DNA of 41,833 nucleotides from a virus: positions 1 through 41,833 of the IMG/VR virus record IMGVR_UViG_3300021197_000193. One strand, 5' to 3'. A program made the translations under genes and the position numbers. Positions 1 to 41,833 of this stretch are shown piece by piece. Below the pieces are notes generated by a model that was given only the letters and a program-made list of their open reading frames with translations, was not told where the DNA came from and made no database searches. Each line of letters begins with the position of its first letter. Within the stretch, counting starts at the first letter, position 1.

Positions 1-845
1 TTACATACTATTTCTGAGTTGTCCGCGAACTTAGACAACGTATTCCATCCCCACCCATATTTGTTACCGCCAACGGCATCAGATACTTCGTCGCGTATCC
101 GCTTTGCATATTCGTGATCCCTGTAAGGTAGCAACGGATACATGGTGAACGCCCACTCGCGGAACTCAGCAATAGCATCCTTCATTTTGGCTTTGGCTTT
201 CTTATCTACCCGAACCTTGGGCGCAACAGGCACCCCCTTACCACCATCCACAAAAGATATTTTGTCGTCGTCAACACGAAACGTCAGCGCCACACCATCA
301 TCACGGGATGTTAAGTCGTTAGTCCACCGATTTTTCCGTGCATCGTCAGGCAGCGCCCACGCAGCTACCGTGTTACTTTTGGCAAGATAGTATTCCTTGT
401 ACGTGGTGCCGTAACCCAACGATATAAAGTGTTTACCGTTGCGAACGATGAACCGCATACCCTTTGGTAAGTGTCTGTCTAAGAAACTATACCGACCGTT
501 GTGTGCACCTTGACCTGTACCGTTACGCACCTTGATTGTCGTCGTACCATCCCTGTGTCTGCGCCACACGATTGGTGCAAGGTTAATCATTTCTGCTTCG
601 GTTGGTGTACCTGTGTTACCACCGTAACCCCAACCCCTAAACACATCGTCACCAGTGTAATACCCATCTGTCAGCACATAGCAGTTGTTGTTGATCTTTT
701 TGATCCGTTCCTGTTTACGCGCACGGTCACCAAGAGGACGCACGTTGTCGTTCTTGTGTTTACCTCGCAGGGGTTTGATAGCATCGTATACTGCTGCTAC
801 TTTGTCGAAGGACATTAGGTGTCTGTTTTGCCAATATAAGGCCAT
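1..845 (-). CDS. Unrecognised phage protein, C-terminus cut by window edge
   Basis: The frame is open from ATG at 845 down to the left edge, giving at least 281 residues, so the end of the gene is outside the window. The start follows GGAGAAATACA-ATG, the ribosome-site pattern shared by several genes of this operon. The protein is basic in its first 50 residues (RARKQERIKK around 40-50), then Gly/Tyr/Asp-rich (TDGYYTGDD), with no signal peptide, membrane segment or catalytic motif that I recognise. It is the last visible gene of the leftward operon, and a palindrome copy lies about 45 bp upstream. I cannot assign a function. The coding call rests on continuous, sensible codon use over 280 codons. 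Confidence 0.8.
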   Translation of the reverse strand, partial: MALYWQNRHLMSFDKVAAVYDAIKPLRGKHKNDNVRPLGDRARKQERIKKINNNCYVLTDGYYTGDDVFRGWGYGGNTGTPTEAEMINLAPIVWRRHRDGTTTIKVRNGTGQGAHNGRYSFLDRHLPKGMRFIVRNGKHFISLGYGTTYKEYYLAKSNTVAAWALPDDARKNRWTNDLTSRDDGVALTFRVDDDKISFVDGGKGVPVAPKVRVDKKAKAKMKDAIAEFREWAFTMYPLLPYRDHEYAKRIRDEVSDAVGGNKYGWGWNTLSKFADNSEIVC

Positions 846-865
846 TGTATTTCTCCATTTGTTAT

Positions 866-886
866 GGGGTGACACCACGCCACCCC
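866..886 (-). other. Intercistronic hairpin GGGGTG/CACCCC
   Basis: A 6-bp perfect stem (866-871 with 881-886) lies between the stop at 905 and the start at 845. No U-tract follows it, so it is more likely a leader or mRNA-processing structure than a terminator. Its function is unknown. Confidence 0.3.
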
Positions 887-891
887 TTTCA

Positions 892-909
892 TTTAGGGAA
901 GTCCCTAAT
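892..909. promoter_or_regulatory. Palindrome copy 1 (TTTAGGGA-NN-TCCCTAAT)
   Basis: This is one of seven copies of the dyad TTTAGGGA-NN-TCCCTAAA, here with one mismatch in the last base. It overlaps the stop codon of the 905-1681 gene and lies 47 bp upstream of the next start (845). It is probably a protein-binding operator, though an RNA hairpin is also possible. Confidence 0.7.
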
Positions 910-1681
910 ACGTTTTACCCACGTACCACGCAGCGGCTACCAACACCGATACCAGTACCGCAGCAACAAGAACCTTTGGTACGCGAATAATGTATACGTG
1001 CGCATCGGCGTCACGCTGCGCGGCTGTTGAGTTGCCTACAGCAACAGTTGGATTACCTACAGCAGTAGTTTGGTTACCTGTAGCTTTGACGGTCACACTT
1101 GCTTTCTTCTGTGTGACACGTTTTGGCTTGGGCTTTACGTCCACCCGGTCCGGGGAAGGTTCGTCAGCAGGCACAAACGTAAGCCATTTGTTCTTACTTT
1201 TATTATCAAGGTAGCCGTACTTGGTAGGGCCAAACGCGTCAATCAACGCTTCACGATCTGCGCCAATCAGAGTGTCGGGCACAAACCAACACTTACCATC
1301 CCAACGTGCGCCCATCGCCTTGGCATGTTCCTTATTCTCAAATGGCGCATTGTACAGGTAGTGTTTTGGCTTGCCATTGGTTTTAACTTCTTCTTCGTCA
1401 GCTTCAGCAAAAGCCGCGTCAACAATGGTGCCCAATGGCTCGTCACCAAACTCATCGTCACCAAACAAATCGGTAAGATCAAATGGCTTTGCGTCTGTTA
1501 CCACAACAGCTTCTTTTGTACGTTTCACTTGTCCTCTTAACTTGTTTAACTTTACCTCGACAGCTTTAGACGTGCGCCCAAGGCGCAGCCCAATATCCTC
1601 GCGTGGTACTCCTGCCGCTGAAAGGTCTAAGAGTATTTGCATCTCTTTAGCCGACCACGGCTTATTGCTTCTAGTTTCCAT
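905..1681 (-). CDS. Predicted HTH + DUF5710 protein with C-terminal membrane anchor
   Basis: 258 residues in three parts. Residues 8-50 (WSAKEMQILLDLSAAG...) look like a GcrA/Myb-type helix-turn-helix with a 'GRTSKAVEVKLNKL' recognition segment. Residues 107-135 contain KEHAKAMGARWD...CWFVP, the signature of DUF5710, a small domain common in mobile elements. Residues 233-254 form one hydrophobic membrane segment, after a low-complexity stretch in which a 'VGN' motif recurs with 7-residue spacing (about 202-220). A DNA-binding-like head on a membrane tail is unusual; it could tether DNA or act as a membrane-bound regulator, but that is inference. The ATG at 1681 follows GGAGATGACAA. It overlaps the 3' end of the upstream 76-residue gene. 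Confidence 0.8.
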   Translation of the reverse strand: METRSNKPWSAKEMQILLDLSAAGVPREDIGLRLGRTSKAVEVKLNKLRGQVKRTKEAVVVTDAKPFDLTDLFGDDEFGDEPLGTIVDAAFAEADEEEVKTNGKPKHYLYNAPFENKEHAKAMGARWDGKCWFVPDTLIGADREALIDAFGPTKYGYLDNKSKNKWLTFVPADEPSPDRVDVKPKPKRVTQKKASVTVKATGNQTTAVGNPTVAVGNSTAAQRDADAHVYIIRVPKVLVAAVLVSVLVAAAWYVGKTY

Positions 1682-1901
1682 TTGTCATCTCCTTTGGCCT
1701 TGCTTTTGGCCTTATTGTTTTGGACAGTATGTTTGTCCGTTCACATTGAGCCATGCTATCTTTATCGAAAGCATAGATCGGTTCGTAGTATGCAGGTAAC
1801 GCATCACCACATGCTTGCGCACTGGGGAAGATGATACGTGATTGAAGGTATTCCCCTTGGACATGATAACTTAGTATCATTATCGTAAAGTATTCTATCA
1901 C
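1671..1901 (-). CDS. Small conserved-looking phage protein
   Basis: 76 residues with a GTG start that overlaps the upstream stop as GTGA, the coupling pattern seen elsewhere in this operon. The C-terminal half (DSMAQCERTNILSK followed by a KARP-type tail) resembles small uncharacterised proteins of marine phages. The N-terminal part is moderately hydrophobic (IEYFTIMILSY) but short for a membrane helix. An internal ATG at residue 8 is a possible alternative start. The function is unknown. It overlaps the downstream HTH-DUF5710 gene by 11 bp. Confidence 0.65.
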   Translation of the reverse strand: MIEYFTIMILSYHVQGEYLQSRIIFPSAQACGDALPAYYEPIYAFDKDSMAQCERTNILSKTIRPKARPKEMTNGN

Positions 1902-2065
1902 CAGTCAGGTTCTCCATTTTCGTCTAGTGTTGGCATTTTAAAGGTGAAGTCACGCTCCACCTTCGGCTCTGGTTCTTCAGGTTCCAAGGGCACTACGCCT
2001 ATGGCTTTTAGTGCTGCGTCTAAGAACTTAGGTAGAACATCAGACACAGGTTCACCCGTCGTCAC
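1898..2065 (-). CDS. 55-residue acidic small protein
   Basis: This short gene is easily missed. A GTG at 2065 is preceded by GGGGAG at a spacing of 9 bp. The frame reads VTTGEPVSDVLPKFLDAALK and ends PTLDENGEPDW, with stop TGA at 1900-1898 overlapping the GTG of the next gene. The start overlaps the 3' end of the upstream zinc-motif gene by 14 bp. It is acidic and proline-rich (LEPEEPEPKVE). The function is unknown. Support comes from coupling on both sides and from filling an otherwise unexplained 150-bp gap. Confidence 0.6.
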   Translation of the reverse strand: MTTGEPVSDVLPKFLDAALKAIGVVPLEPEEPEPKVERDFTFKMPTLDENGEPDW

Positions 2066-2258
2066 GTTCTATCTCCCCTAGCCCGTTGCAGTTGTCACAC
2101 TCCGCTTGGTATTCTTCCAAGTATCCATACGGATTTGTGAACCCCATTGGCACAGCGCGTTCCATTGTTTGTTCCCCTGTACCTTTGCACTCAGGGCAAA
2201 CAATGAACGGATTATCCACAAACAAGTTTTTCAATGTAGACGCCCCTTTTGCACACAA
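2052..2258 (-). CDS. DnaJ-type zinc-motif small protein
   Basis: 68 residues with two CxxCxGxG-like motifs, CPECKGTG and CDNCNGLG, about 30 residues apart. This is the same spacing logic as one zinc-binding unit of the DnaJ cysteine-rich domain. It has no J domain. Small proteins with this unit are common in phages, and their targets are generally unknown. It overlaps both neighbours in the leftward operon (28 bp upstream, 14 bp downstream), so it is co-translated with them. Confidence 0.7.
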   Translation of the reverse strand: MCAKGASTLKNLFVDNPFIVCPECKGTGEQTMERAVPMGFTNPYGYLEEYQAECDNCNGLGEIERDDG

Positions 2259-2518
2259 CGCGCCAAGAATTTCTCCGCGTCCTTCGCCGCTTCAACGGCT
2301 TCGTTTTCTTCGTGCGCATCTGCAAATATGTCAGAGCCATGGTCTTGCATAAACGTACCCAAGACATCCATCATGCACAGAAGCATAGATGCTTTGGTTT
2401 GCGTGTTTGCTTCTGTGAACCCATCCATAAACTCCACAGTGACAGATACTTCTTCACCGCCTTGGCTACGGGTTTTAATGTCCGCGTACAGTTCAATTAT
2501 CTTTACCTTCTTGGCCAT
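2231..2518 (-). CDS. Small unknown protein of the left operon
   Basis: 95 residues. I chose the ATG at 2518 because it overlaps the upstream stop as TGATG; a GTG two codons earlier is possible. It begins MAKKVKIIELYADIKTR, a beta-strand-like start, and has an acidic, Ala/Glu-rich C-terminal half (DAHEENEAVEAAKDAEKFL) likely to be helical. It has no cysteine motif, no membrane segment and no recognisable family. It lies between a basic 49-residue peptide and the zinc-motif protein. Confidence 0.65.
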   Translation of the reverse strand: MAKKVKIIELYADIKTRSQGGEEVSVTVEFMDGFTEANTQTKASMLLCMMDVLGTFMQDHGSDIFADAHEENEAVEAAKDAEKFLARCVQKGRLH

Positions 2519-2667
2519 CACTTACCCTTTCGTTTCATTGCAGTCATAGCTCGCCTGTCGTTACGGTTAAGAGGTTTTGACATATCCATGTCAGCCAACC
2601 TACGTTTCTGGCGTAAAGAGTTCGGCTTCGGCTTCGGGCCTCGTCCCTTTTTGTTAAGGTTTGCCAT
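2518..2667 (-). CDS. 49-residue strongly basic peptide
   Basis: A short gene with an ATG overlapping the upstream stop (TAATG at 2669-2665) and a stop overlapping the next start (TGATG). It begins MANLNKKGRGPKPKPNSLRQ and ends AMKRKGK, with a net charge far above neutral. It contains no tryptophan or cysteine. Such peptides often bind nucleic acid or are very small virion or host-interacting proteins, but no family is recognised. Coupling on both sides is the main evidence that it is real. Confidence 0.65.
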   Translation of the reverse strand: MANLNKKGRGPKPKPNSLRQKRRLADMDMSKPLNRNDRRAMTAMKRKGK

Positions 2668-3890
2668 TATAAATCCTCCGATTGTACATGCACCGTCACA
2701 CCGTGATCGGGCTTGGCGTTCTTGTTATCCACGATCACCCACAGCACAGGATGATCCCACGTACCCCAACCATTGTAGAGGTAGCCATCTGTAAACACGA
2801 TAGAGGCTTGCGGCTTGATGTTATGCTCGCGCATATACTCAGGCACACAACACACATCAGTGCCGCCACCACCCACAGGGTTCGTCTTGGATGCCACGGT
2901 ATCCAGTTCGTCGTTGGTATACTTCTCATACCCACAGACTTTCGTGTCCCAATAACTTACGTGCAATTCTTCGGGCTTGACCGCTTCACAGATACCAACC
3001 AACTCGCTAATCATTATCTGCTGTTCACGTTTACCGATAGAGCCAGACATATCGTTGTGTTCTGCAATGCACGTAACTTGTTCTGAGATACCGCTAGGCA
3101 TGTAGATACCAGTTCCTATGTAACGCCTGTTAGGTTTCTTCCACGTCGAGTAATCTTTACCTGCGCACGTTGTTTGCACAAACTCACGCAGCACCTCGCG
3201 CCAATCCACCTTGGGCTTCAGCAATTCTTCCATGTCACGATTGCCACCGCTGCCCATTTTACCTGCAACCAGTGAGCCTTGACGTATGGCCTCGTCCACC
3301 TCGCGTTGTATCTCACGCTGCTCGTCGGGCGTCATGTCTTGTGCGCCTTCCCAATCGTGATCGTCGAACCCTTGGGGATGTCCATCGTCACACTCTGGAC
3401 ATACATCTTCACACATACACTTGCCACGGCCACCGCCGCCGCCATCTTCTTCTTTGTAGATATCCCAGAAGATTTTAGCTGTACCCCACCCCTTGTACTT
3501 GGGGTCATAGCATCCACCCTTGGGCATCGTGACCCAACCATCTTGGCCATACTCGTCAATGATCTTGCCATTGATATCGTAGTCCATTGCGATGTTGGCA
3601 GTGCGCGGACATATCTTCCACAGGTGTGCCCACGTTACCAAGTGACGATACATCTTGTGAAACACCTCATGTATCACGACGAACCGTAGCTCTGGATCGT
3701 TATGTGCAAACACGAACCCTCTACCGTACCATTCGTCACGTCCGTTGGTACAGGCTGTTGGCACCGTGTCATCAATCGTACGTTCACCGATCATCAGCAA
3801 CCCCGATATCTCAGGGATGCGTGGCATGATATCAACGACCGCTTTGGACAGCCGTTGTTCTTCCGTTAGTTGTTTACCTATTGCTAACAT
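2667..3890 (-). CDS. Putative metallopeptidase/VWA-like protein (DUF2201-type)
   Basis: 407 residues. The start is set at the second ATG (3890), which sits 7 bp after GGAG, rather than 3896. The N-terminal region has HEVFH (about residues 74-78), the HExxH zinc-protease motif. A Gly run and a cysteine cluster (CMCEDVCPEC, about 158-167) follow. The C-terminal third has a VWA-type metal-binding pattern: DMSGS (DxSxS, about 280-284) and GGGGTD (about 340-345). This layout matches DUF2201-type putative metallopeptidases with a VWA-like domain, which usually pair with a MoxR AAA+ ATPase. That partner is encoded just upstream (3920-5020). Proteolytic activity is not shown, and the motif could be structural. 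The stop overlaps the next start. Confidence 0.82.
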   Translation of the reverse strand: MLAIGKQLTEEQRLSKAVVDIMPRIPEISGLLMIGERTIDDTVPTACTNGRDEWYGRGFVFAHNDPELRFVVIHEVFHKMYRHLVTWAHLWKICPRTANIAMDYDINGKIIDEYGQDGWVTMPKGGCYDPKYKGWGTAKIFWDIYKEEDGGGGGRGKCMCEDVCPECDDGHPQGFDDHDWEGAQDMTPDEQREIQREVDEAIRQGSLVAGKMGSGGNRDMEELLKPKVDWREVLREFVQTTCAGKDYSTWKKPNRRYIGTGIYMPSGISEQVTCIAEHNDMSGSIGKREQQIMISELVGICEAVKPEELHVSYWDTKVCGYEKYTNDELDTVASKTNPVGGGGTDVCCVPEYMREHNIKPQASIVFTDGYLYNGWGTWDHPVLWVIVDNKNAKPDHGVTVHVQSEDL

Positions 3891-3902
3891 TGTCATTCTC
3901 CA

Positions 3903-3920
3903 TTTAGGGAGTTCCCTAAT
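3903..3920. promoter_or_regulatory. Palindrome copy 2
   Basis: TTTAGGGA-GT-TCCCTAAT, one mismatch from perfect. It sits exactly between the stop of the AAA+ gene and the ribosome site (GGAG, 3901-3898) of the VWA gene. Its placement could affect both transcription and ribosome access. Confidence 0.75.
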
Positions 3921-5020
3921 TAAGTTTTATCCGCTGCGAACATGTAGTTGTTCTGCATTGCCCATGTGGTGAACTTCTTGTTCTTCATCACCATTGACTG
4001 CTTGCTGTACTTGGGCGCACGTACACCATTGGCGAACATACCCTGTGCCTCGGTGTCCAAACGTGGCATGTAGTCCATCCACGCGTTGAGCCAGTCACCT
4101 TCGATAGATGCAAGCGTACGATAGACAACCATACAGATAGCCGCAGCACTGTCAGGCACCTTGGCGTTCTTCGGATCGTCCTTGATAGATTGTAGGCTTG
4201 GCAGTTGATCCGACAGTTTGACAAACGCCATCAAGTCCATAGCACCACGATCACCAATAGTACCCATCAGCGCGGCAGTGAGTGTCTGATCGTCAAACGC
4301 ATGACGTTGCTGTAAGATATCAGACGCAGAGTGCAACGAACGCGGTGTCACAAACGCAGCGCGTAGCGGCCCTGCCAATGGATGGAATATGTATGGGTTC
4401 TCGTCGGGGTCTTTCACATCTTCAAACGAATAGAACAGTTGGGGGTTATCTTTACACCAACCAAGTAGGGTGTGGTCAATACCATTGTTGATACCCCATT
4501 CGATCCATTCCATGTTAGTAGACTTGCGAACCTGTACCACGGTCATGCGGTTACGCGCGTGTGGTGGTAACATGTCACCCACACCCTCAGACCCTTTGTT
4601 GGTTGTCGCATACACAATGCTATCAGGGTGCAGCGTGTAGCTGCCGATCTTACGCTCCAGTATCAAGCGTAGCAGTGCAAGTTTAACGGATGGGTTAGCC
4701 TTACCGAACTCGTCAATCATAATGATGACAGGCCCATCTGTGTGCAGCCCCAATTCTTCGTTGGTGACGTAGCGAACGAACTTACTGTTCTCGTCAATCT
4801 CCATAATCATTGGGATCATAATGTCGCCAAGGTCAAGGCTCGTACAGTCTACATAGAACATCCTATGGTTAGGCTTCAGTTTACCCAACTCAGGCAGTGT
4901 GGATGATTTACCGTTACCGATGTCACCCTGCATGAGGACGGTACGTTCGTGGCCGATGGCTCCGATCAGTGTTATACATTGGTCAAGGCTCAGTGCGTAC
5001 ATTTGTTGTGCGTTATTCAT
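3920..5020 (-). CDS. MoxR-type AAA+ ATPase
   Basis: 366 residues. Walker A is GDIGNGKS (32-39), Walker B is VIIMIDEF (98-105) and sensor 1 is ATTN (138-141). An arginine pair follows in PPHARNRM (about 153-159), as expected for an arginine finger. The 'IDEFGKANPSVKLALLRLILE' stretch and the overall order are those of MoxR-family ATPases, which remodel or load metals into partner proteins through VWA domains. The predicted partner is the downstream HExxH/VWA protein. Start: ATG 8 bp after GGAG. It belongs to the leftward operon, downstream of a palindrome copy. Confidence 0.88.
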   Translation of the reverse strand: MNNAQQMYALSLDQCITLIGAIGHERTVLMQGDIGNGKSSTLPELGKLKPNHRMFYVDCTSLDLGDIMIPMIMEIDENSKFVRYVTNEELGLHTDGPVIIMIDEFGKANPSVKLALLRLILERKIGSYTLHPDSIVYATTNKGSEGVGDMLPPHARNRMTVVQVRKSTNMEWIEWGINNGIDHTLLGWCKDNPQLFYSFEDVKDPDENPYIFHPLAGPLRAAFVTPRSLHSASDILQQRHAFDDQTLTAALMGTIGDRGAMDLMAFVKLSDQLPSLQSIKDDPKNAKVPDSAAAICMVVYRTLASIEGDWLNAWMDYMPRLDTEAQGMFANGVRAPKYSKQSMVMKNKKFTTWAMQNNYMFAADKT

Positions 5021-5038
5021 TTGTCATTCTCCAGTTTG

Positions 5039-5056
5039 TTTAGGGACTTCCCTAAA
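5039..5056. promoter_or_regulatory. Palindrome copy 3
   Basis: A perfect TTTAGGGA-CT-TCCCTAAA dyad between the 31-residue peptide gene and the ribosome site of the AAA+ gene. The downstream stretch to the start (CAAACTGGAGAA...ACA) is shared almost letter for letter with copy 4. Confidence 0.8.
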
Positions 5057-5064
5057 TGGTTAAG

Positions 5065-5160
5065 TTAAATCCAGTTTAGTGATACGGATATCATCCATAC
5101 CAGAACCACCGCGACGATCACCGCCGCAATAGTCCAGTCTTGCCAATCACCCCAGTCCAC
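5065..5160 (-). CDS. 31-residue single-pass membrane peptide
   Basis: A tiny gene. GTG at 5160 overlaps the upstream stop as TAGTG, and TAA lies at 5067-5065. The N-terminus is MDWGDWQDW, acidic and tryptophan-rich, followed by about 20 hydrophobic residues (TIAAVIVAVVLVWMISVSL), a clear transmembrane helix. It lies between the DUF3150-like and AAA+ genes and is probably co-translated with the former. It could anchor or signal for the AAA+/VWA machinery at the membrane, which is inference. It is too short for most gene callers. Confidence 0.6.
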   Translation of the reverse strand: MDWGDWQDWTIAAVIVAVVLVWMISVSLNWI

Positions 5161-6134
5161 TACATATCCAGACTTGGTAGGGCAGCGATAGCTGCGGTGA
5201 TTTTTGTGCGTGTCTCTTCACGCAGTGTCGGGCTGTTCTTGATCTGATCTAGGTTCAAGCTGCGTTCACCCGACACATGAAACGCTTGTTCCAATCGTTG
5301 GCGCATGGCCTCCATCTGGCTATCTTGTGTCACGTTACATGTACGCAACATCTCGGTCAGCTCGATAGCGCGGTCAAACACTGTGTCAAACAAACGATTG
5401 CCCTTGCCTTCCTCGTTCACGTCGAGTTGTCGCGCAAGCGTGGTCAGATTGTCATGCAGCTTTTGCCATATGTCATTCATCGCGGTCTTGATGGCTTGCG
5501 TGTAGTGTGTTTCATATTGGGTTCGCAGTGTGACCATAGCCTCGTTGCCAATGTCAATACGAAAGTCACCGCTATCAGGCAGAGGCACGTAGGATACACG
5601 GAACCCGAACTTGTCACGCAGACTGTCGCGCGTTGGATACTCGTCACGGTGAAACATAGCACCTAGCTTGGCTTGGGCGTCCATGATCTTCCACTCGTAC
5701 ACGTTCAGGAACTCGTCCACCAACCGCTCGAACTCATACTGTAGGTCGGTCATAACTTCGTGATACTTGAAATACTGCATGGTGGTCAGCAGTCGGGAGC
5801 CGTTGTCTGACCATGGCATAGTCATACCATAGTGTAGGTTACGTGTGTTACCTGCGAACTTCTGGACGGCGCGTAGCTCGTCGCAGTCACCTAGTAAGTT
5901 CTTAGTCACATTGGCCACGCCCTTGTCCGCGGCGTTCATGTTGGTGACATCATCCGATGCCTTGCGGTCTTTCTTACGTGCAGTCCATACGGACGCGTTG
6001 AAGTCCACGGTCATTGCCGCTGAACTGATTGACGGTGCTTGGGCAACGCAGTCGCCAACGCCATTCCAATAATCTTTTGCCATTGTCTCTGCGTCTTGCA
6101 GTAATTCGTTGTTAATCTCGTGATCCATGTTCAT
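5160..6134 (-). CDS. DUF3150-like protein, partner of AAA+/VWA pair
   Basis: 324 residues, mainly helical and charged, with no cysteine cluster or membrane segment. The central part (YFKYHEVMTDLQYEFERLVDEFL... RDKFGFRVSYVPLPDSGDFRID) and the gene order next to a MoxR ATPase and a VWA protein fit DUF3150. I recall that family from phages and mobile elements beside exactly such genes, but I could not run a profile search. The biochemical role is unknown. Start: ATG 7 bp after GGAG. It overlaps the GTG of the downstream membrane peptide by one base. Confidence 0.65.
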   Translation of the reverse strand: MNMDHEINNELLQDAETMAKDYWNGVGDCVAQAPSISSAAMTVDFNASVWTARKKDRKASDDVTNMNAADKGVANVTKNLLGDCDELRAVQKFAGNTRNLHYGMTMPWSDNGSRLLTTMQYFKYHEVMTDLQYEFERLVDEFLNVYEWKIMDAQAKLGAMFHRDEYPTRDSLRDKFGFRVSYVPLPDSGDFRIDIGNEAMVTLRTQYETHYTQAIKTAMNDIWQKLHDNLTTLARQLDVNEEGKGNRLFDTVFDRAIELTEMLRTCNVTQDSQMEAMRQRLEQAFHVSGERSLNLDQIKNSPTLREETRTKITAAIAALPSLDM

Positions 6135-6151
6135 TGTCTTTCTCCAGTTTG

Positions 6152-6169
6152 TTTAGGGAGTTCCCTAAA
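6152..6169. promoter_or_regulatory. Palindrome copy 4
   Basis: A perfect TTTAGGGA-GT-TCCCTAAA dyad upstream of the DUF3150-like start. The flanks match copy 3, so a cassette of palindrome plus ribosome site appears to have been duplicated. Confidence 0.8.
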
Positions 6170-6178
6170 TGGTTTAGG

Positions 6179-6442
6179 TTAGTCATTCTTAGCGTCTTCG
6201 ATAAGTCTTACGATATGTTCAAACGCTGCCCACGCGTCACAGCATGAGCACCCGCAGTCTTCACCGTCTGCGGATATTTCCAAATCCTTGCGGATGTCAC
6301 CAGAGCCGTGCTCGCTCCACGCCTCATAACAAGGCTCACCCACATAACTTGTAAGGAACATCTTTACGACACGTAGCGCGGCCTCCGATTTATGTGCCAA
6401 CTTCGCTTCGCGTGTAGTACCATGTTGGTTTGATCCCGACAT
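6179..6442 (-). CDS. Unknown Cys-containing small protein
   Basis: 87 residues. The start at 6442 follows GGTGCGGTGAT, one base past the upstream stop. The C-terminal half holds a tight cysteine group (DCGCSCCDAW) that could bind a metal. The rest is helical and charged. There is no recognised family. It is the second gene of the left operon, between a zinc-ribbon protein and the DUF3150-like protein. Confidence 0.65.
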   Translation of the reverse strand: MSGSNQHGTTREAKLAHKSEAALRVVKMFLTSYVGEPCYEAWSEHGSGDIRKDLEISADGEDCGCSCCDAWAAFEHIVRLIEDAKND

Positions 6443-6443
6443 A

Positions 6444-6644
6444 TCACCGCACCTTTTGATTTAGGTGCAGCAAGTCGTCCTTGCGTGTTACGAGCGTGTA
6501 GCCTTGCTTGGGCAGCGGTACTGTGCACCAACTGGCACGTTGCTCTGCGGCTACCAAGTCACCGCAATTTAGGCATACGTTGTATCCAAGCGCGCGGCGC
6601 TTGACTGGGAATAGTTCCCCGCATGATTGACATTCTGCTGACAT
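6444..6644 (-). CDS. Zinc-ribbon small protein, first gene of the left operon
   Basis: 66 residues with two CxxC knuckles, CQSCGELF and CLNCGDL, about 20 residues apart, as in zinc ribbons. The C-terminal half is basic. Start: ATG after CCGGAGGACAAAAC. It is the first gene after the left promoter (6774-6746), with palindrome copy 5 in the leader. A regulatory or nucleic-acid-binding role is plausible but unproven. Confidence 0.7.
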   Translation of the reverse strand: MSAECQSCGELFPVKRRALGYNVCLNCGDLVAAEQRASWCTVPLPKQGYTLVTRKDDLLHLNQKVR

Positions 6645-6662
6645 GTTTTGTCCTCCGGTGTA

Positions 6663-6680
6663 TTTAGGGAGTTCCCTAAA
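6663..6680. promoter_or_regulatory. Palindrome copy 5, in the leader of the left operon
   Basis: A perfect TTTAGGGA-GT-TCCCTAAA dyad, about 66 bp downstream of the left promoter -10 and 19 bp before the first gene. It is well placed as an operator or roadblock for the whole operon. Confidence 0.8.
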
Positions 6681-6745
6681 TGGTTAGTGTGATACGCGAG
6701 ACACACGGGTGCCTCGGTAGCTAACTGCGCGCTAACTACTCTGTA

Positions 6746-6774
6746 GTTATATCACAAGTAGCGAGAAATGTCAA
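6746..6774 (-). promoter_or_regulatory. Left operon sigma70-type promoter
   Basis: Reading leftward: TTGACA (6774-6769), a 17-bp spacer, then TATAAC (6751-6746), preceded by a TG extended -10 element. That is six of six and five of six consensus bases at optimal spacing. It would start transcription near 6739, about 95 bp before the first start codon. A GCTAACT direct repeat (about 6719-6736) lies around the expected start site and could bind a regulator. Confidence 0.75.
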
Positions 6775-6863
6775 TAGGTATCAGAAACTATCGTGTGGGG
6801 GGTATTTGTATCATGTGACACCATGTGACGTTGTGGGTAGCTGTAAGTCACTGATGTTAAACG

Positions 6864-7081
6864 AATGTTCCGATGTTCCAATGTTCCGTAAGGGATATGT
6901 CTAGATTTATGAAGTGGTTTTTACGCCCACGACCCCTTCTTACCCCTCCCAATAAAATCTATATATATACTCTTCTAAAAACGGAACAACGGAACATTTG
7001 TTTGTTTTCAAGCACTTAACTGCCATATGCTACGGAACATGGACGGAACATACGGAACATTCGTTTGTTTTCAATGACTTA
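6864..7081. repeat. Opposed 8-bp iteron arrays around an AT-rich core (candidate origin)
   Basis: This is the middle of a 664-bp stretch without genes (6645-7308). Three tandem 8-mers ATGTTCCG/ATGTTCCA/ATGTTCCG run over 6865-6888. The reverse complement CGGAACAT (or -AA) occurs five times at 6982-6989, 6990-6997, 7033-7040, 7044-7051 and 7053-7060. Between the arrays is an AT-rich run with TATATATATA (about 6960-6969). A 25-bp near-repeat (acatt..gtttgttttcaa..actta) lies at 6994-7018 and 7057-7081. Iterons flanking an easily melted core is the layout of many initiator-dependent origins. An autoregulatory site of a DNA-binding protein is the alternative. Confidence 0.6.
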
Positions 7082-7091
7082 GCATTTGCGT

Positions 7092-7265
7092 GACGCGAGG
7101 CGCTGATGGGATACTGGTATCAGATCATTTAGGGAGTTCCCTAAACGTGGGGGGCTATGCGCTAACCCCAACGTCACATAACATTCTATGGCGATGCGTG
7201 GCGCTACTGGGATACTGGTATCAATCTGCGGTGACGCGTAACGCTACTGGGATACTGGTATCAAT
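7092..7265. repeat. Three copies of a 33-bp repeat centred on GATAC-TG-GTATC
   Basis: Copies at 7092-7124, 7193-7225 and 7233-7265 share the pattern GACGCG..GCTACTGGGATACTGGTATCA. Copies 2 and 3 are 40 bp apart; copy 1 is more divergent. Each contains the 12-bp dyad GATACTGGTATC. GGTATCA half-sites also occur at about 6776 near the left promoter. They are probably binding sites for a regulator or replication protein. Confidence 0.7.
7128..7145. promoter_or_regulatory. Palindrome copy 6, inside the repeat region
   Basis: A perfect TTTAGGGA-GT-TCCCTAAA dyad between the first and second 33-bp repeats, with no gene start nearby. The preceding TATCAGATCA is also found in similar form (TATCAGATGTCA) before copy 7, so the two share extended flanks. 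Confidence 0.75.
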
Positions 7266-7270
7266 GGGCA

Positions 7271-7301
7271 TAAAAAAATGGGGAAACCTTTCGGCTTCCC
7301 C
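7271..7301 (-). terminator. Intrinsic terminator of the small leftward unit
   Basis: Reading leftward: GGGGAAGCC, a GAAA tetraloop, GGTTTCCCC, then ATTTTTTTA. It is a 9-bp GC-rich stem (one G-U pair) with a seven-U tract, a textbook rho-independent terminator. It sits just after the stop of the 7309-7539 gene and isolates that unit from the control region. Confidence 0.9.
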
Positions 7302-7308
7302 TGAGATG

Positions 7309-7539
7309 TTACAAGAAGTAGTCTTCCATGTCGTCGTCTTCATAGCCTGCCCACTCTGCCATGAGGCGGACATCGCGGTTATGTTTTGCCTTATCGACTA
7401 TTTTGCCAACAATGCCGCCAACAGGTTGCCATGGGTCTGGCGTGGGTTCAAGATTGGCAAACACGTTGTTTGTCCGCGCCTCATCTAGTGCACGATCAAT
7501 TGTTTTTTGATCGTATGTATATGCTCGAGTTCTAGTCAT
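7309..7539 (-). CDS. Unknown small acidic-tailed protein
   Basis: 76 residues. I chose the ATG at 7539 because TTGGAGGAAACCAA precedes it; the frame stays open 11 codons further upstream. It begins MTRTRAYTYDQKTIDRALDEAR and ends in an acidic tail, YEDDDMEDYFL. It has no membrane segment, cysteine motif or known family. It is the last gene before a strong terminator, in a unit with the 179-residue gene upstream. Its position next to the control region would suit a regulator, but that is only context. Confidence 0.65.
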   Translation of the reverse strand: MTRTRAYTYDQKTIDRALDEARTNNVFANLEPTPDPWQPVGGIVGKIVDKAKHNRDVRLMAEWAGYEDDDMEDYFL

Positions 7540-7561
7540 TTGGTTTCCTCCAAGGTTAATT

Positions 7562-7582
7562 GGGGCAGACAATGCCTGCCCC
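7562..7582 (-). other. Intercistronic hairpin GGGGCAG/CTGCCCC
   Basis: A perfect 7-bp GC-rich stem with a 7-base loop between the stop at 7590 and the ribosome site of the next gene. No U-tract follows in the leftward direction, so partial attenuation or mRNA stabilisation is more likely than full termination. Confidence 0.4.
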
Positions 7583-7589
7583 TGATATG

Positions 7590-8129
7590 TTATCGTTTGA
7601 TTGACAGTGTATCGAATACTGTCAAAACCGCTTTGCGCGTAGGCTTGTAATTTTTGCCTAATTCTGACTCATTCTTTTCAACCCAATTCTTAAGATTGTT
7701 TATGAGCTGGTCGCGCATCTGGATCGACGTTAGCTTGTCGGCCTTTTTGACCTCGGCCTTGCCGTCTGTCACTTGCGTGATCTTGTTTAACTTGCCGCCA
7801 GTATCAGCAAACAGTTTTGGTGCTTGGCGGCGCATCAAGGCGTCTTTAAGATCGGCTATAGTAGAACCAATGTCGGTGCTTTCATGGGCACGCTTCTTAG
7901 TTTTAAGAATGTCACCAAACAATGCTTTTAATTCATCATAACCCTCTTTGGTTGCGGTTGATTTACCGCTTTCAAGGTTATTTTTGGTAGGCGCAACGGC
8001 ATCTGTCCATCGCATATGCTTTGATACGCTGTCGACGTGCGTTTCAAACTTAGTCTCGCCATTTAGCTTGGCATACCAAGCTTCTTTGATTGAGGCCAGA
8101 GCAAGCACATTATTAAGAACATTAGACAT
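7590..8129 (-). CDS. Unknown helical protein, first gene of the small leftward unit
   Basis: 179 residues from ATG 8129, which follows AAGGGATATAAC. A longer open frame to 8189 lacks a ribosome site. It begins MSNVLNNVLALASIKEAWYA. The protein is Lys/Asp/Thr-rich and probably helical, with no cysteine, membrane segment or motif that I recognise. The C-terminus (KPTRKAVLTVFDTLSIKR) is basic. It lies downstream of the inverted repeat at 8200-8215 and is divergent from the packaging genes. That is a classic place for an early regulator or host-takeover gene, but no function can be assigned. Confidence 0.7.
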   Translation of the reverse strand: MSNVLNNVLALASIKEAWYAKLNGETKFETHVDSVSKHMRWTDAVAPTKNNLESGKSTATKEGYDELKALFGDILKTKKRAHESTDIGSTIADLKDALMRRQAPKLFADTGGKLNKITQVTDGKAEVKKADKLTSIQMRDQLINNLKNWVEKNESELGKNYKPTRKAVLTVFDTLSIKR

Positions 8130-8199
8130 GTTATATCCCTTCAAGATATACGGCGCGAAACCCATTGCTTCGCTGTCCCGATAAAACACTTATGCCATG

Positions 8200-8215
8200 G
8201 TGTAACGTGTTACAC
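8200..8215. promoter_or_regulatory. Inverted repeat GTGTAAC-GT-GTTACAC
   Basis: Perfect 7-bp arms around a 2-bp centre. Read leftward, it sits between a weak TTGTGT and CATAAG pair with 17-bp spacing, which could be a poor promoter for the 179-residue gene. An operator is the likeliest reading. Confidence 0.5.
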
Positions 8216-8261
8216 AATAGATAGAACCGCACCGGATGGCACTGGATGTTATCAGATGTCA

Positions 8262-8279
8262 TTTAGGGACTTCCCTAAA
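8262..8279. promoter_or_regulatory. Palindrome copy 7
   Basis: A perfect TTTAGGGA-CT-TCCCTAAA dyad in the divergent region, about 135 bp before the rightward promoter. It is the rightmost copy I found. None occurs in the structural arm. Confidence 0.75.
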
Positions 8280-8413
8280 TAGGCTATAGCGCAGCACCAC
8301 CCCCCTACCACCCCCCGCGCTGTTCTATGGGACTCCACATACACATATACATACTATTACAGACGAATTTATGGCACATTTTTGAAAACCCCCCACCCCT
8401 TTTTCCAAAACCC

Positions 8414-8442
8414 TTGTCAAAAAATTTTTTGTAACCTATTAT
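8414..8442 (+). promoter_or_regulatory. Rightward promoter of the packaging/head operon
   Basis: TTGTCA (8414-8419), a 17-bp spacer that is an A/T run, then TATTAT (8437-8442). Each hexamer has five of six consensus bases. The predicted transcript starts near 8449, about 25 bp before the small terminase start at 8474. It would be read by host sigma70 polymerase. Confidence 0.7.
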
Positions 8443-8473
8443 TACGTTATCGGTTAACAACCTGCGACGTATT

Positions 8474-9070
8474 ATGACACTGAATGTCACCCCAGAGCTA
8501 GGGATACCCCTAGAAGATGAGGTAAACCAAATACCTCTACCGGAGCGTGCAGCCGCACTGGACAAAACCGTTGACGAATTAGAAAAATACGGTGCGGACC
8601 TTGAACCTACCGAGGCAGACAAAGAAGTTGCAGCTACATTAGCCACCGCATATGCCCAAGACCCTGATAAAACGTCTAAAAAAGTTACCCACAAGCGCGC
8701 CGCGGTGCTAACACCTGCATCTGTGCGCCTGACACAGGGTATTATAGAAGAATTTAACCATTCTGTAGTGGAATCATCGAAGCAATTACGTAATCTGGTG
8801 ACTAACAAACTGGTCATCGAGTCCGAAAACCCTGATCCAAGGGTACGTATGCGTGCATTGGAGCTTCTAGGTAAGATATCCGACGTAGGGTTGTTCACTG
8901 AGAAGTCTGAAGTGACGATCACACACCAAACAACTGACGACATTAAAGAAAAACTACGTGGTAAACTTGCAAAACTTGTAAATCCACCGCCAGAAATAGA
9001 AGACGCTACTGTTATTGAAGAGCAAATGCTTGATACCGACGAAGAATTTGGGTTCGACGACGATGACTGA
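8474..9070 (+). CDS. Probable terminase small subunit
   Basis: 198 residues directly before the large terminase. Small terminases recognise phage DNA and load the ATPase motor. Here the identity comes mainly from position, size and charge. The N-terminus is acidic. The middle has 'LTQGIIEEFNHSVVESSKQLRNLVTNKLVIESENPDPRVRMRALELLGKISDVGLF', reminiscent of small terminase-like proteins of marine phages, and the C-terminal tail is very acidic (DTDEEFGFDDDD). No clear helix-turn-helix is seen. There is no good ribosome site before ATG 8474. Its end overlaps the large terminase start. Confidence 0.7.
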   Translation: MTLNVTPELGIPLEDEVNQIPLPERAAALDKTVDELEKYGADLEPTEADKEVAATLATAYAQDPDKTSKKVTHKRAAVLTPASVRLTQGIIEEFNHSVVESSKQLRNLVTNKLVIESENPDPRVRMRALELLGKISDVGLFTEKSEVTITHQTTDDIKEKLRGKLAKLVNPPPEIEDATVIEEQMLDTDEEFGFDDDD

Positions 9071-39800: not shown

Positions 39801-41833
39801 TTTCTTGCTGAAAATGTGGGCAGTGAAATACTTCAAGAAGTCCCAATATTTTTGGCATCAGGTGGTACAGCTAACGTAGCCAAAGCAGCATTGATAAACG
39901 GCGGAGAAGCCTATGCTAAACGAATAGCTACGCGTGCCGCAGTGGGGACCGCGCTAGTTCTTGACGCAGGAGAAGCCTTTGGGGGCACCGCGGCTGCATC
40001 GTTTGATGAAACTTTTGCTACCGCTATGGCTGCGGTAAACGACGATGGATCACAACGGTTTACAGAACAAGAAGCCACTGATCTAGCTATGGAAACAGCC
40101 ACAAATGCGGGTATGATTGCAACGCTTACTACGTTAGCTACCGCAGGGATCGGAGGACAGGCGCTAGCAAAAAACATTCTTGGGGATAACGCTAGCGAAT
40201 TTGCAGGTGACTCTTTAGACATACTGGTTAAACGAGTTAACGACGGGTCAAAAGTTGTAATAAAAGAAGGTAGCACTGAGTTTGTAGAAGAAGCGCTACC
40301 GCAACTGTATACCGCGACTGTAAATTCACAGATTGATCCTGAATACGATGTGGCGGGGTCTGTTTGGGAAACTGGATTTATGGGGGTTGCTTCGGGTACG
40401 GGCGTTGCGGCGACGTTGTATTCTGGTAATGCTGTAGCAGACACGCTATTGCGAACAAATCCTAATGTTCGAGACGCGGTAAAAAATGCTGCAACGCCAG
40501 AAATGGCCTCTCAAGTGCTAACTGATTTAGGTGTTACAGACACCACAGTTTTGAACAACGTGTTAAACTCTACATATGACACGTTATATGTAAGCACTAA
40601 AGAAGCAGAGAAAATATTTGCTGACCAGAATCCAGACTATCAACCCACCCAAGCAGAAATAGAGTCGTTTGTATCCAAGAGCGCGGAGTCTAATGTAGCA
40701 ACAGCGGTTGCAGCGTACATAGACCCAAAGTTTCTAGATGCAGACGAAATACGTGCCGCGGCTGCTGATGCGGGGTTAACCCTTACAGACGAACAGGTTG
40801 CCAATTCCGTAGGGAAAGTCGATGACGAAACTTCCAGCCTTGCGTCATTAATAGATGCTTTGCGTACCGCCCCCGCAACACAAGGGGACATAGTTGACGC
40901 AATAAGCAATTTAGATTTAAATGCTGCGTCTACTGAAGCAGTTAAAGAAATTGTAGATAGCGCCATAGCGAGTATACCCGCAGGTGTGAGTACAGAAGAT
41001 GTTAGCAACGCTATAACCACGGCTATATCCGAATTACCTGCGGGTGTGAGCACAGAAGATGTTAGCGATGCTATAAACACAGCGCTAGGTTCACCTGCAA
41101 CAGTAGATGAAGACGGTAATCCTGTCGAAGCTACAGGTATATACAAGGTAATAGACGATTTACCTGAAGGGTTAAGCACAGAAGATGTTAACTCTGCAAT
41201 ATCTGACGCGTTAGAAGATATGAACAACTTGTCTACAACAGACGTAGATAAAATTGTAAGTGATGCACTGGGTTCACCTGCAACAGTAGATGAAGACGGT
41301 AATCCTGTCGAAGCTACAGGTGTATACAAGGTAATAGACGACTTACCTGAAGGGTTAACCACAGAAGATGTTAGCGAAGCTATAACCACTGCGATAGCAG
41401 ATATACCTGAAGGGTTAAGCACAGAAGATGTTAGCGATGCTATAAACACAGCGCTAGGTTCACCTGCAACAGAAGACGATCCTGCTACAGGTATATACAA
41501 GGTAATAGACGATTTACCTGAAGGCTTAAGCACAGAAGATGTTAACTCTGCAATATCTGACGCGTTAGAAGATATGAACAACTTGTCTACAACAGACGTA
41601 GATAAAATCGTAAGTGATGCACTGGGTTCACCTGCAACAGTAGATGAAGACGGTAATCCTGTCGAAGCTACAGGTGTATACAAGGTAATAGACGACTTAC
41701 CTGAAGGGTTAACCACAGAAGATGTTAGCGAAGCTATAACCACTGCGATAGCAGATATACCTGAAGGGTTAAGCACAGAAGATGTTAGCGATGCTATAAA
41801 CACAGCGCTAGGTTCACCTGCAACAGAAGACGA
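36813..41833 (+). CDS. Giant internal virion protein, C-terminus cut by window edge
   Basis: The frame is open from ATG 36813 to the right edge, at least 1673 residues. Ribosome site: AGAGGTGGTGTAGT. It begins MSFVIEAVEDVVDTAVDFVED and has an amphipathic, Ala/Gly-rich hydrophobic region (about 60-130, AIATVTAAVMTAGGSLTLMQ) that could insert in membranes. Long helical, Ala-rich segments follow, including AAANAAVDAANKDYQDTYQ. The last 230 residues form a repeat array of GLSTEDV and SDA(I/L) units. Size, position after the nozzle region and composition fit ejection proteins of podoviruses. No lytic transglycosylase motif is evident in the visible part. Confidence 0.8.
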   Translation, partial: MSFVIEAVEDVVDTAVDFVEDVTGNIADVVEDAVEWVMDEVVQPVVDGVENVVEYALDNPIEAIATVTAAVMTAGGSLTLMQGALITGAGAGTQALVDGESLEDAVKAAVISGAGTYVGGTVGNYVGPSIEAGTAAVFANPKLASTVATALTAGAEGAARTYVATGDLEQAGNAFLTAAAVSGTQAGVDAATNKIMGNVGYELNELGNVELDGVSAGIKNAVSAGISAELLGQDVSSAMLYAGAGDILSDIGSSEFLEKYVTDTAFVQSIVDKYTPVVEYMQEFVDSVEASAKENLTDAQIKVITDATVAAFDVAKQGNPELAGETFFGKDGLGKSAYDTMYDFITDPINSALDDFTGNTATTIEKATAINEAVEEQKNVVAAHNARVAEYNVLWDTYDTFAYVRDQRLAEHEANPTQATLDALNTATQDLNAQAARINAEAPALKNQIDAGLTADGPIAAANAAVDAANKDYQDTYQYILSDFEDLDAALVPMKQEAIKLAATSLIPDLAVDEYGNFYGLSPDEVYENALQNFTNRPTTESSIRSALDTARFSAVTKALADQGIDIYSLSKDQIGTLLNYANNELQTFADIVPQPGDAPIAGTQEFSNNLFNLLRNDTSDATPEFKAFIEASGFDIGDDDYQPFLNGEYIQTTDGSVIATEGMSEANLLYALENNNISVDELEYAGPAAQAKFAELLSSGMSYSGDIPGIGAALLQNAEAQTDGFASAQDNRIPFDDGVTAEDLLSGEAVITNKNGQPTWTLVDTVVADGDGVVTVANNDGTVDLLTGTLDAIVIMENSATLSLLVTNRNPKSLLSPEYLEGLYGTTVGSEIKTSLLPPPNGAAWMQTVLDLTAEQGAQLDEQVGSPFHKAFSRLYEVYKKETPEDQQKAFTNAASVVTGASGELLTAAAFLGGLALDVDVENNAVLSVAKDMVKLSGDLRTDEWKAGAADMQARSQNYDAEWRANNPGKEPTLADKGYLKAQAIWGNLTEHPVQFLAENVGSEILQEVPIFLASGGTANVAKAALINGGEAYAKRIATRAAVGTALVLDAGEAFGGTAAASFDETFATAMAAVNDDGSQRFTEQEATDLAMETATNAGMIATLTTLATAGIGGQALAKNILGDNASEFAGDSLDILVKRVNDGSKVVIKEGSTEFVEEALPQLYTATVNSQIDPEYDVAGSVWETGFMGVASGTGVAATLYSGNAVADTLLRTNPNVRDAVKNAATPEMASQVLTDLGVTDTTVLNNVLNSTYDTLYVSTKEAEKIFADQNPDYQPTQAEIESFVSKSAESNVATAVAAYIDPKFLDADEIRAAAADAGLTLTDEQVANSVGKVDDETSSLASLIDALRTAPATQGDIVDAISNLDLNAASTEAVKEIVDSAIASIPAGVSTEDVSNAITTAISELPAGVSTEDVSDAINTALGSPATVDEDGNPVEATGIYKVIDDLPEGLSTEDVNSAISDALEDMNNLSTTDVDKIVSDALGSPATVDEDGNPVEATGVYKVIDDLPEGLTTEDVSEAITTAIADIPEGLSTEDVSDAINTALGSPATEDDPATGIYKVIDDLPEGLSTEDVNSAISDALEDMNNLSTTDVDKIVSDALGSPATVDEDGNPVEATGVYKVIDDLPEGLTTEDVSEAITTAIADIPEGLSTEDVSDAINTALGSPATED
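41131..41833 (+). repeat. 354-bp tandem repeat in the giant gene
   Basis: A 354-bp (118-codon) unit begins at about 41131 and recurs at about 41485, running to the right edge. I see only two mismatches, both silent (GGG/GGC and ATT/ATC). Each unit contains smaller repeats: 'LPEGLSTEDV', 'SDALEDMNNLSTTDVDK' and 'GSPATVDEDGNPVEATG'. A divergent, shorter version of the units precedes it (about 40990-41130). Confidence 0.9.

Follow-up and report, generated by a model that had tools for sequence, protein, structure and literature searches.

Why does a virus carry one short palindrome at site after site along a single arm of its genome, and what recognizes it? The question is raised by the virus record IMGVR_UViG_3300021197_000193 (65,104 bp; contig G000), whose bases 1–41,833 constitute the stretch analyzed here, referred to as the window. 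The palindrome, TTTAGGGANNTCCCTAAA, is found among leftward early genes, close to a gene for an uncharacterized protein that we call CR. We consider it likely that the copies are dispersed operators of CR, acting as a phage-encoded DNA-binding repressor in the manner of the stoperators of phage L5. CR and the palindromes resemble a switch and the many places at which it docks, because the palindromes of relatives nearly always match the version of CR that is encoded beside them.

Matches to TTTAGGGANNTCCCTAAA at three or fewer mismatches number exactly seven in the window, compared with a mean of 0.12 and a maximum of 1 in 100 dinucleotide-preserving shuffles of the window. All seven lie where the initial annotation, made from the sequence alone, had placed them:

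892–909, no strand assigned: palindromic site 1, TTTAGGGA AG TCCCTAAT, overlapping the stop of the gene at 905–1681
3903–3920, no strand assigned: palindromic site 2, ahead of the VWA/DUF2201 gene
5039–5056, no strand assigned: palindromic site 3, ahead of the MoxR-like ATPase gene; relatives have different palindromes at the homologous spot
6152–6169, no strand assigned: palindromic site 4, ahead of the DUF3150-like gene
6663–6680, no strand assigned: palindromic site 5, ahead of the zinc-finger-like first gene of the operon
7128–7145, no strand assigned: palindromic site 6, in the control region, with GATACCAGTATC a few bases on, on the leftward strand
8262–8279, no strand assigned: palindromic site 7, located 132 bp upstream of CR and probably autoregulatory
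7590–8129, minus strand: CR gene, uncharacterized 179-aa protein, the proposed cognate DNA-binding protein, whose allele tracks the palindrome type

The 8-bp arms attributed to every copy are perfect in five of the seven, while at 892 and 3903 the outermost pair is broken (TTTAGGGA..TCCCTAAT). Five copies had been assigned to gaps between a stop codon and the ribosome site that follows, and credited with a common GGAGAA..ACA ribosome-site pattern; both descriptions hold for 892, 3903, 5039 and 6152, but the copy at 6663 precedes the first operon gene and has GGAGGACAAAACATG. The two remaining copies had been described as lying in gene-free control regions, which for 7128 is better called gene-poor, and 8262 is the copy ahead of the gene at 7590–8129. 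The full record adds two copies beyond the window, a perfect one at 60,620 and one with two mismatches at 64,710, which sit among the leftward genes of the replication arm, where matches to DNA polymerase, DNA helicase, primase/helicase, exonuclease and endonuclease families are found. The structural arm, which begins with the gene at 8474, ahead of TerL, contains no palindrome copy at two or fewer mismatches anywhere in the record, as had been noted for the window. At the record ends (1 and 65,104), the spacing of sites compared with that in G007 suggests that about 1 kb is missing; apart from that gap the ends would connect into a single leftward arm.

Scanned for exact matches, viral contigs yielded 94 stretches with the motif, 39 of which hold at least two copies at two or fewer mismatches. 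Because selection by the motif itself had to be avoided, relatives were picked through the MoxR-like ATPase gene, the best 80 of 309 being fetched and the sequence just upstream inspected. Under the criterion that arm length minus three per mismatch be at least 6, a palindrome precedes MoxR in 70 of the 80 relatives, versus 9 of 80 shuffled sequences (one shuffle each), and its sequence takes many different forms. The search of related phages that the initial annotation had proposed thus finds the palindrome at the same places, with a sequence that differs between phages. Each fetched contig essentially uses one palindrome sequence, and others exist besides these five:

TTTAGGGANNTCCCTAAA (type A): contigs G000, G007, G009 and G012
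TTCGGGCANNTGCCCGAA (type B): contigs G001, G005, G008 and G011
GTTAGTG(N3-4)CACTAAC: contigs G002, G003, G004 and G010
TTTACGGAATTCCGTAAA: contig G014
GTAGTG(N3)CACTAC: contig G006

Ten contigs of 52–65 kb have 7–13 own-type sites each, clustering in the early arm; the count for G000 is 8 by a stricter pattern and 9 when the more diverged copy at 64,710 is included. MoxR genes that are 95% identical (L127/L128 and L121/L128) are accompanied by different palindromes, and in L121 and L128 the upstream flanks are recognizably alike around the exchanged palindrome. In G002 (L195), a genome of the GTTAGTG type, two TTTACGGAATTCCGTAAA sites at 49418 and 49689 stand where G014 has such sites, and have the look of remnants of an earlier specificity. 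Locus L033, which has a type-B CR protein and B palindromes, also has one perfect type-A palindrome at 146, and may be a recombinant or a relic. The earlier suggestion of a dedicated regulon is borne out by the limitation of the motif to the early arm, by its presence in relatives and by the match of its sequence to the allele of one phage protein.

That protein is CR, which is about 170–210 residues long across relatives. When G014 is compared with G002, the matched genes are 43–96% identical, and a gene of about 200 codons flanked by the terminase genes and the control region, CR, is unmatched. A CR gene turned up in 18 of 21 contigs (the exceptions, G003, G013 and G015, start or end inside the operon) and in every palindrome clade examined; this distribution singles CR out among the open reading frames (ORFs) that switch together. 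Among the matches listed, four type-A CR proteins are 60–70% identical to one another and have no BLAST match to the other types; TerS, MoxR and DUF3150 do match across palindrome types. For a nearest-neighbor test, 11 of the 80 loci, which had no palindrome that occurred three times, were excluded and the rest dereplicated to 45 by MoxR; CR was comparable in 34 of these, and 29 had a second member of their type. The nearest neighbor by CR had the same palindrome type in 29 of 29 cases, compared with 31/40 for MoxR, 32/40 for VWA, 34/39 for DUF3150, 24/27 for the zinc finger and 22/25 for TerS. Restricting the comparison to the 24 loci with CR, DUF3150 and zinc finger gave 21/22 for CR (the miss being clade C), 17/22 for both DUF3150 and VWA, and 13/22 for MoxR.

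The pairing extends to larger samples. When CR alleles with an identical C-terminal stretch were merged and L001–L009 skipped, 115 of 118 distinct alleles had their own clade's palindrome in the same locus, and off-type copies were seen in L186 (one), L195/G002 (two) and L033 (one). Loci found by the CR protein alone, a set that includes near-duplicates, contained the predicted palindrome in 79 of 80 cases. These comprise 44 of 45 T-type loci (two or more copies in 32), 12/12 for type B, 22/22 for the GTAGTG clade (presence only, as an optional base may cause sites to be counted twice) and 1/1 for the TTTACG clade. The T palindrome occurs in none of the 103 earlier loci, nine of which are pieces of this virus record, and none of the other four tested palindrome types occurs in the 35 B, GTAGTG and TTTACG loci. 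In 17 of 18 contigs, the CR start is preceded at a distance of 112–161 bp by an own-type site at one or fewer mismatches.

An AF2 model of the window CR (mean pLDDT 91.1, pTM 0.71) is helical except for a short strand pair, and one of its helices follows the half-site:

7824–7880, minus strand: codons for CR residues 84–102, the helix tracking the half-site sequence

This helix contains an IGSxIKDLKN-type segment, and a motif around [ST]TDxxSPKxK..STAS.E is common to the CR proteins of most types. Among distant pairs, the helix segment has the highest ratio of same-site to different-site identity, 1.99 versus 0.93–1.62 in the other segments. Clade C, whose half-site TTTAGGG is the same as that of type A, is 38% identical to T and 3% to A in the mid helix and T-like elsewhere (3–17% to A), while within helix 84–102 it is 39% identical to A and 29% to T. 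The CR proteins of L143 and L147 are T-like up to the helix and nearer to B in their C-terminal part (41% vs 18%), and their palindrome is T. We infer strongly that CR binds the palindromes as DNA, mainly through helix 84–102.

CR itself belongs to a protein family that was found described in none of the searched sources. It gave no convincing Pfam, NCBIfam or PHROG family match, the Pfam and NCBIfam scans of 60 CR proteins yielding scattered weak matches only (best 0.00054 and 0.00095), and a sequence search of the PDB returned E values of 0.05 or worse only. Foldseek found nothing at E ≤ 0.001 for the full model or the T-type domain, and the best VIA comparison reached a Z of 5.3 over 44 C-terminal residues (4.2 for the T-type domain), which does not show the CR fold to be new. 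Three representative CR proteins had no match at E ≤ 0.01 among 50,697 isolate phage records, and among open-licence PMC papers, judged by titles and abstract starts, none was recognized as describing this system.

Several observations weigh against CR as the cognate repressor. Other ORFs change along with it: a 128-aa ORF and several small ORFs are likewise unmatched between G014 and G002, further ORFs besides CR, including larger ones, are unmatched between G012 and G011, and a gene of about 70 aa occurs, among the matches listed, in the four type-B contigs only. In the 24 three-gene loci the zinc finger scored 20/22 against 21/22 for CR, so that linkage explains part of the agreement and the nearest-neighbor test alone cannot separate linkage to the control region from cause. 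For type A the agreement (29/29) arises partly by construction, because many type-A loci were found via the palindrome itself. No listed palindrome type is present in L246, L183 or the cut piece L214, L033 mixes its B sites with an A site, and in G010 no site precedes CR. The palindromes of B and B5 are the same although their helices are only 27% identical, and no known DNA-binding fold was recognized in CR by the Foldseek and VIA searches. At the sites themselves, the central dinucleotide of type-A operon copies is biased on the sense strand (AA 40 vs TT 3), and the spacer of 3 or 4 bases in GTTAGTG genomes is unfavorable to a rigid dimer.

Both of these site properties could be expected if the palindromes acted in the leftward mRNA, folding as hairpins by ribosome sites where they would be bound or cut to control translation or processing, with CR as an RNA-binding protein. 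Many palindromes do lie 12–20 nt ahead of a start codon, 7-bp stems with 3–4-nt centers could fold, and center length varies in GTTAGTG genomes. The distribution of mismatches favors DNA. The 44 type-B sites have a single arm mismatch overall, at the inner pair of one site, and type-A mismatches fall mainly at the outermost pair. The innermost A-T pair is retained in 43/44 type-B and 41/43 type-A matches, yet around a 2-nt center this pair could not pair in RNA. G-U-compatible mismatches are not in excess (GU 2 and AC 2 in A, GU 1 and AC 0 in B, GU 2 and AC 15 in T). Moreover, some copies are remote from ribosome sites, being in control regions or within genes, for example in DNA polymerase (G003 and G004) and in a small gene between MoxR and VWA whose encoded peptide changes with the palindrome. 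The retained inner pair, the lack of a G-U excess and the intragenic copies together favor recognition of duplex DNA. As for the centers, their type-A orientation differs between operon and control-region sites, and type-B centers occur in both orientations; in the underlying tally 91 of 192 sites were classed between codirectional genes, with spurious ORFs from simple ORF calling covering many. We regard the RNA hairpin explanation as unlikely, and the RNA-processing role raised by the initial annotation is disfavored on the same three grounds. The terminator role raised alongside it fares no better: three of the seven palindromes were called terminator-like, only on the plus strand, opposite to the genes, and on the minus (gene) strand none of the seven was called as a hairpin with a T run.

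A second alternative accepts the pairing of CR with its sites and reverses its sense, in that site-bound CR, or the transcript of the site, would keep RNA polymerase going in the manner of nut sites, by activation or antitermination. The recurrence of sites along one transcription unit would suit such a role, as would the several relatives in which a terminator-like hairpin with a T run comes immediately before a site. A few copies are enough for nut systems, and here sites occur inside some genes and also upstream of the CR gene in nearly every contig; with no sign of activation in this analysis, we hold antitermination to be rather improbable. It is more improbable still that the sites serve another factor, a host protein or a different phage gene, to which CR is linked by position only. 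CR adjoins the control region, the zinc finger and TerS track the palindrome type fairly well, and the small B-only gene and further ORFs switch too. Against this stand the presence of CR in 18 of 21 contigs and in every clade examined, the common motif of its clades, the success of prediction in loci found through CR alone and the helix pattern across clades. KorB/ParB-type systems, in which dispersed palindromic operators serve one cognate protein, resemble the roughly ten dispersed palindromes per genome with their dedicated protein, but a primary role in partition, replication or compaction, with gene control secondary, is highly improbable given a ParB_N domain in 0/18 contigs, no sites seen in the late arm and the preference of sites for gene boundaries and the control region.

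The reading of the palindromes as operators of CR can be set against the layout of the control region and early operon:

7309–7539, minus strand: small gene downstream of CR, with a homolog among 21 contigs in G007 only (among the matches listed)
7280–7301, minus strand: intrinsic terminator-like hairpin with T run closing the CR unit (terminator scan)
7110–7262, minus strand: three GATACCAGTATC elements (7110, 7211 and 7251), which form the control region's second repeated element
6444–6644, minus strand: first operon gene, zinc-ribbon/DksA-like (weak matches)
5160–6134, minus strand: DUF3150-like gene (match under Pfam's cut-off)
3920–5020, minus strand: MoxR-like AAA ATPase gene
2667–3890, minus strand: DUF2201 metallopeptidase-like/VWA gene
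905–1681, minus strand: helix-turn-helix (HTH) protein with a D5-like regulator match; it has relatives in contigs of both types, A and B

Read leftward, the order is site 8262, the CR unit, the terminator-like hairpin, the GATACCAGTATC copies with site 7128, site 6663 and the first operon gene. In the control region of many relatives the palindrome is followed a few bases on by GATACCAGT or a near variant, whatever the palindrome type; this second repeat, which may be a promoter or origin element, consists of GATACCAGT(ATC) and a stretch conserved in part (..AGTAGCGCCACGCC), and persists through changes of palindrome type. Elsewhere in the control region, 6970–7070 contains repeated CGGAACAT/ACGGAACA units, and some relatives have similar GTTCC repeats. 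Predicted sigma-70-like promoters in 1–9000 (12 versus 12.0 expected) were uninformative. A 31-aa hydrophobic, membrane-helix-like peptide ORF (5065–5160, minus strand) lies ahead of the MoxR palindrome, its start overlapping the stop of the DUF3150-like gene, and a similar sequence is present in L121, L127 and L128. A second hairpin (GGGGTGGCGTGGTGTCACCCC) at 842–891, which separates the 892 palindrome from the ribosome site after it, recurs in relatives. The HTH protein at 905–1681 was considered as a binder and dropped; it has matches in 3/20 contigs, of types A (G007 and G012) and B (G001).

On the operator reading, CR would be made from its own leftward unit ending at the terminator-like hairpin and, probably as a dimer, would bind its own promoter region (8262) and the control region of the early operon (7128 and 6663), as well as sites that lie between early genes or, in some cases, inside them (892, 3903, 5039, 6152, 60620 and 64710). 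Bound CR would most likely repress initiation and block elongating RNA polymerase, and early and replication genes would be limited or shut off, as by L5-type stoperators. Dimerization, repression, roadblock and autoregulation are each inferred; the picture of an autoregulated repressor gene with an operator-bearing control region and operon sites as roadblocks is drawn by analogy with L5 stoperators, as described in the excerpts of PMC6550527 and PMC9283540.

Against those excerpts, the likeness to the stoperators of the L5 clade (Cluster A mycobacteriophages) is threefold: many copies of a phage-specific site, many of them in short intergenic gaps; a site upstream of the repressor gene, here a candidate judged by position in 17/18 contigs; and a site and a repressor, or candidate repressor, that diverge together. 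L5 sites are asymmetric 13-mers in one orientation, unlike the palindromes here; the L5 repressor is a monomer with an HTH and a Stoperator domain, and CR matches no listed family; and L5 phages are temperate, whereas here no integrase, resolvase or ParB_N domain (PF00589, PF00239 and PF02195) was matched in 18/18 contigs, some of them fragments. Because its sites are palindromic, no integrase was found in the 18 contigs and CR matched no listed family or fold, the CR system was not assigned to the L5 type; it works like an operator or stoperator system that falls outside the L5 definition. The start-associated sequences (SAS/ESAS) of Cluster K mycobacteriophages are repeats likewise limited to the non-structural arm and near start codons (PMC3203893), but SAS is an asymmetric 13-mer typically 3–7 bp from start codons, while the palindromes here also occupy control regions and genes and have a co-varying protein. 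The genomes of Nostoc cyanophages A-1 and N-1 contain motifs in tens of copies, as a rule located between ORFs, which have been suggested as possible stoperators; in the excerpts of that report (PMC4916379) those repeats, unlike the present ones, are asymmetric and appear with no named binding protein.

No near-identical named phage was found for the first 20 kb of the record, MoxR matches in isolate phages all fall below 60% identity, and TerL is 45–47% identical to that of several isolate phages, including Pelagibacter phages HTVC027P and HTVC023P. A host search in which genome contigs were scanned with MoxR and the T-type CR gave no relative. At 40900–41833 of the record, tandem repeats lie in a very long ORF starting at 36813.

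A bolder extension, which we consider doubtful if possible, is that a new DNA-binding family of unrecognized fold runs operon-wide operators in phages without detectable lysogeny genes, its specificity switching together with that of nearly all its genomic sites, and that the pair acts as a mark of type by which an infecting phage can silence co-infecting phages of the same type. If the reading of CR as the repressor of these operators is true, CR would be an uncharacterized regulator family, found here in uncultured phages only, with at least seven site specificities, and the natural CR chimeras would point to one helix as their determinant. It would then be testable how a regulator and some ten scattered sites shift specificity together (G002 keeps two sites of another type), and why phages with no lysogeny genes detected need dispersed operators.

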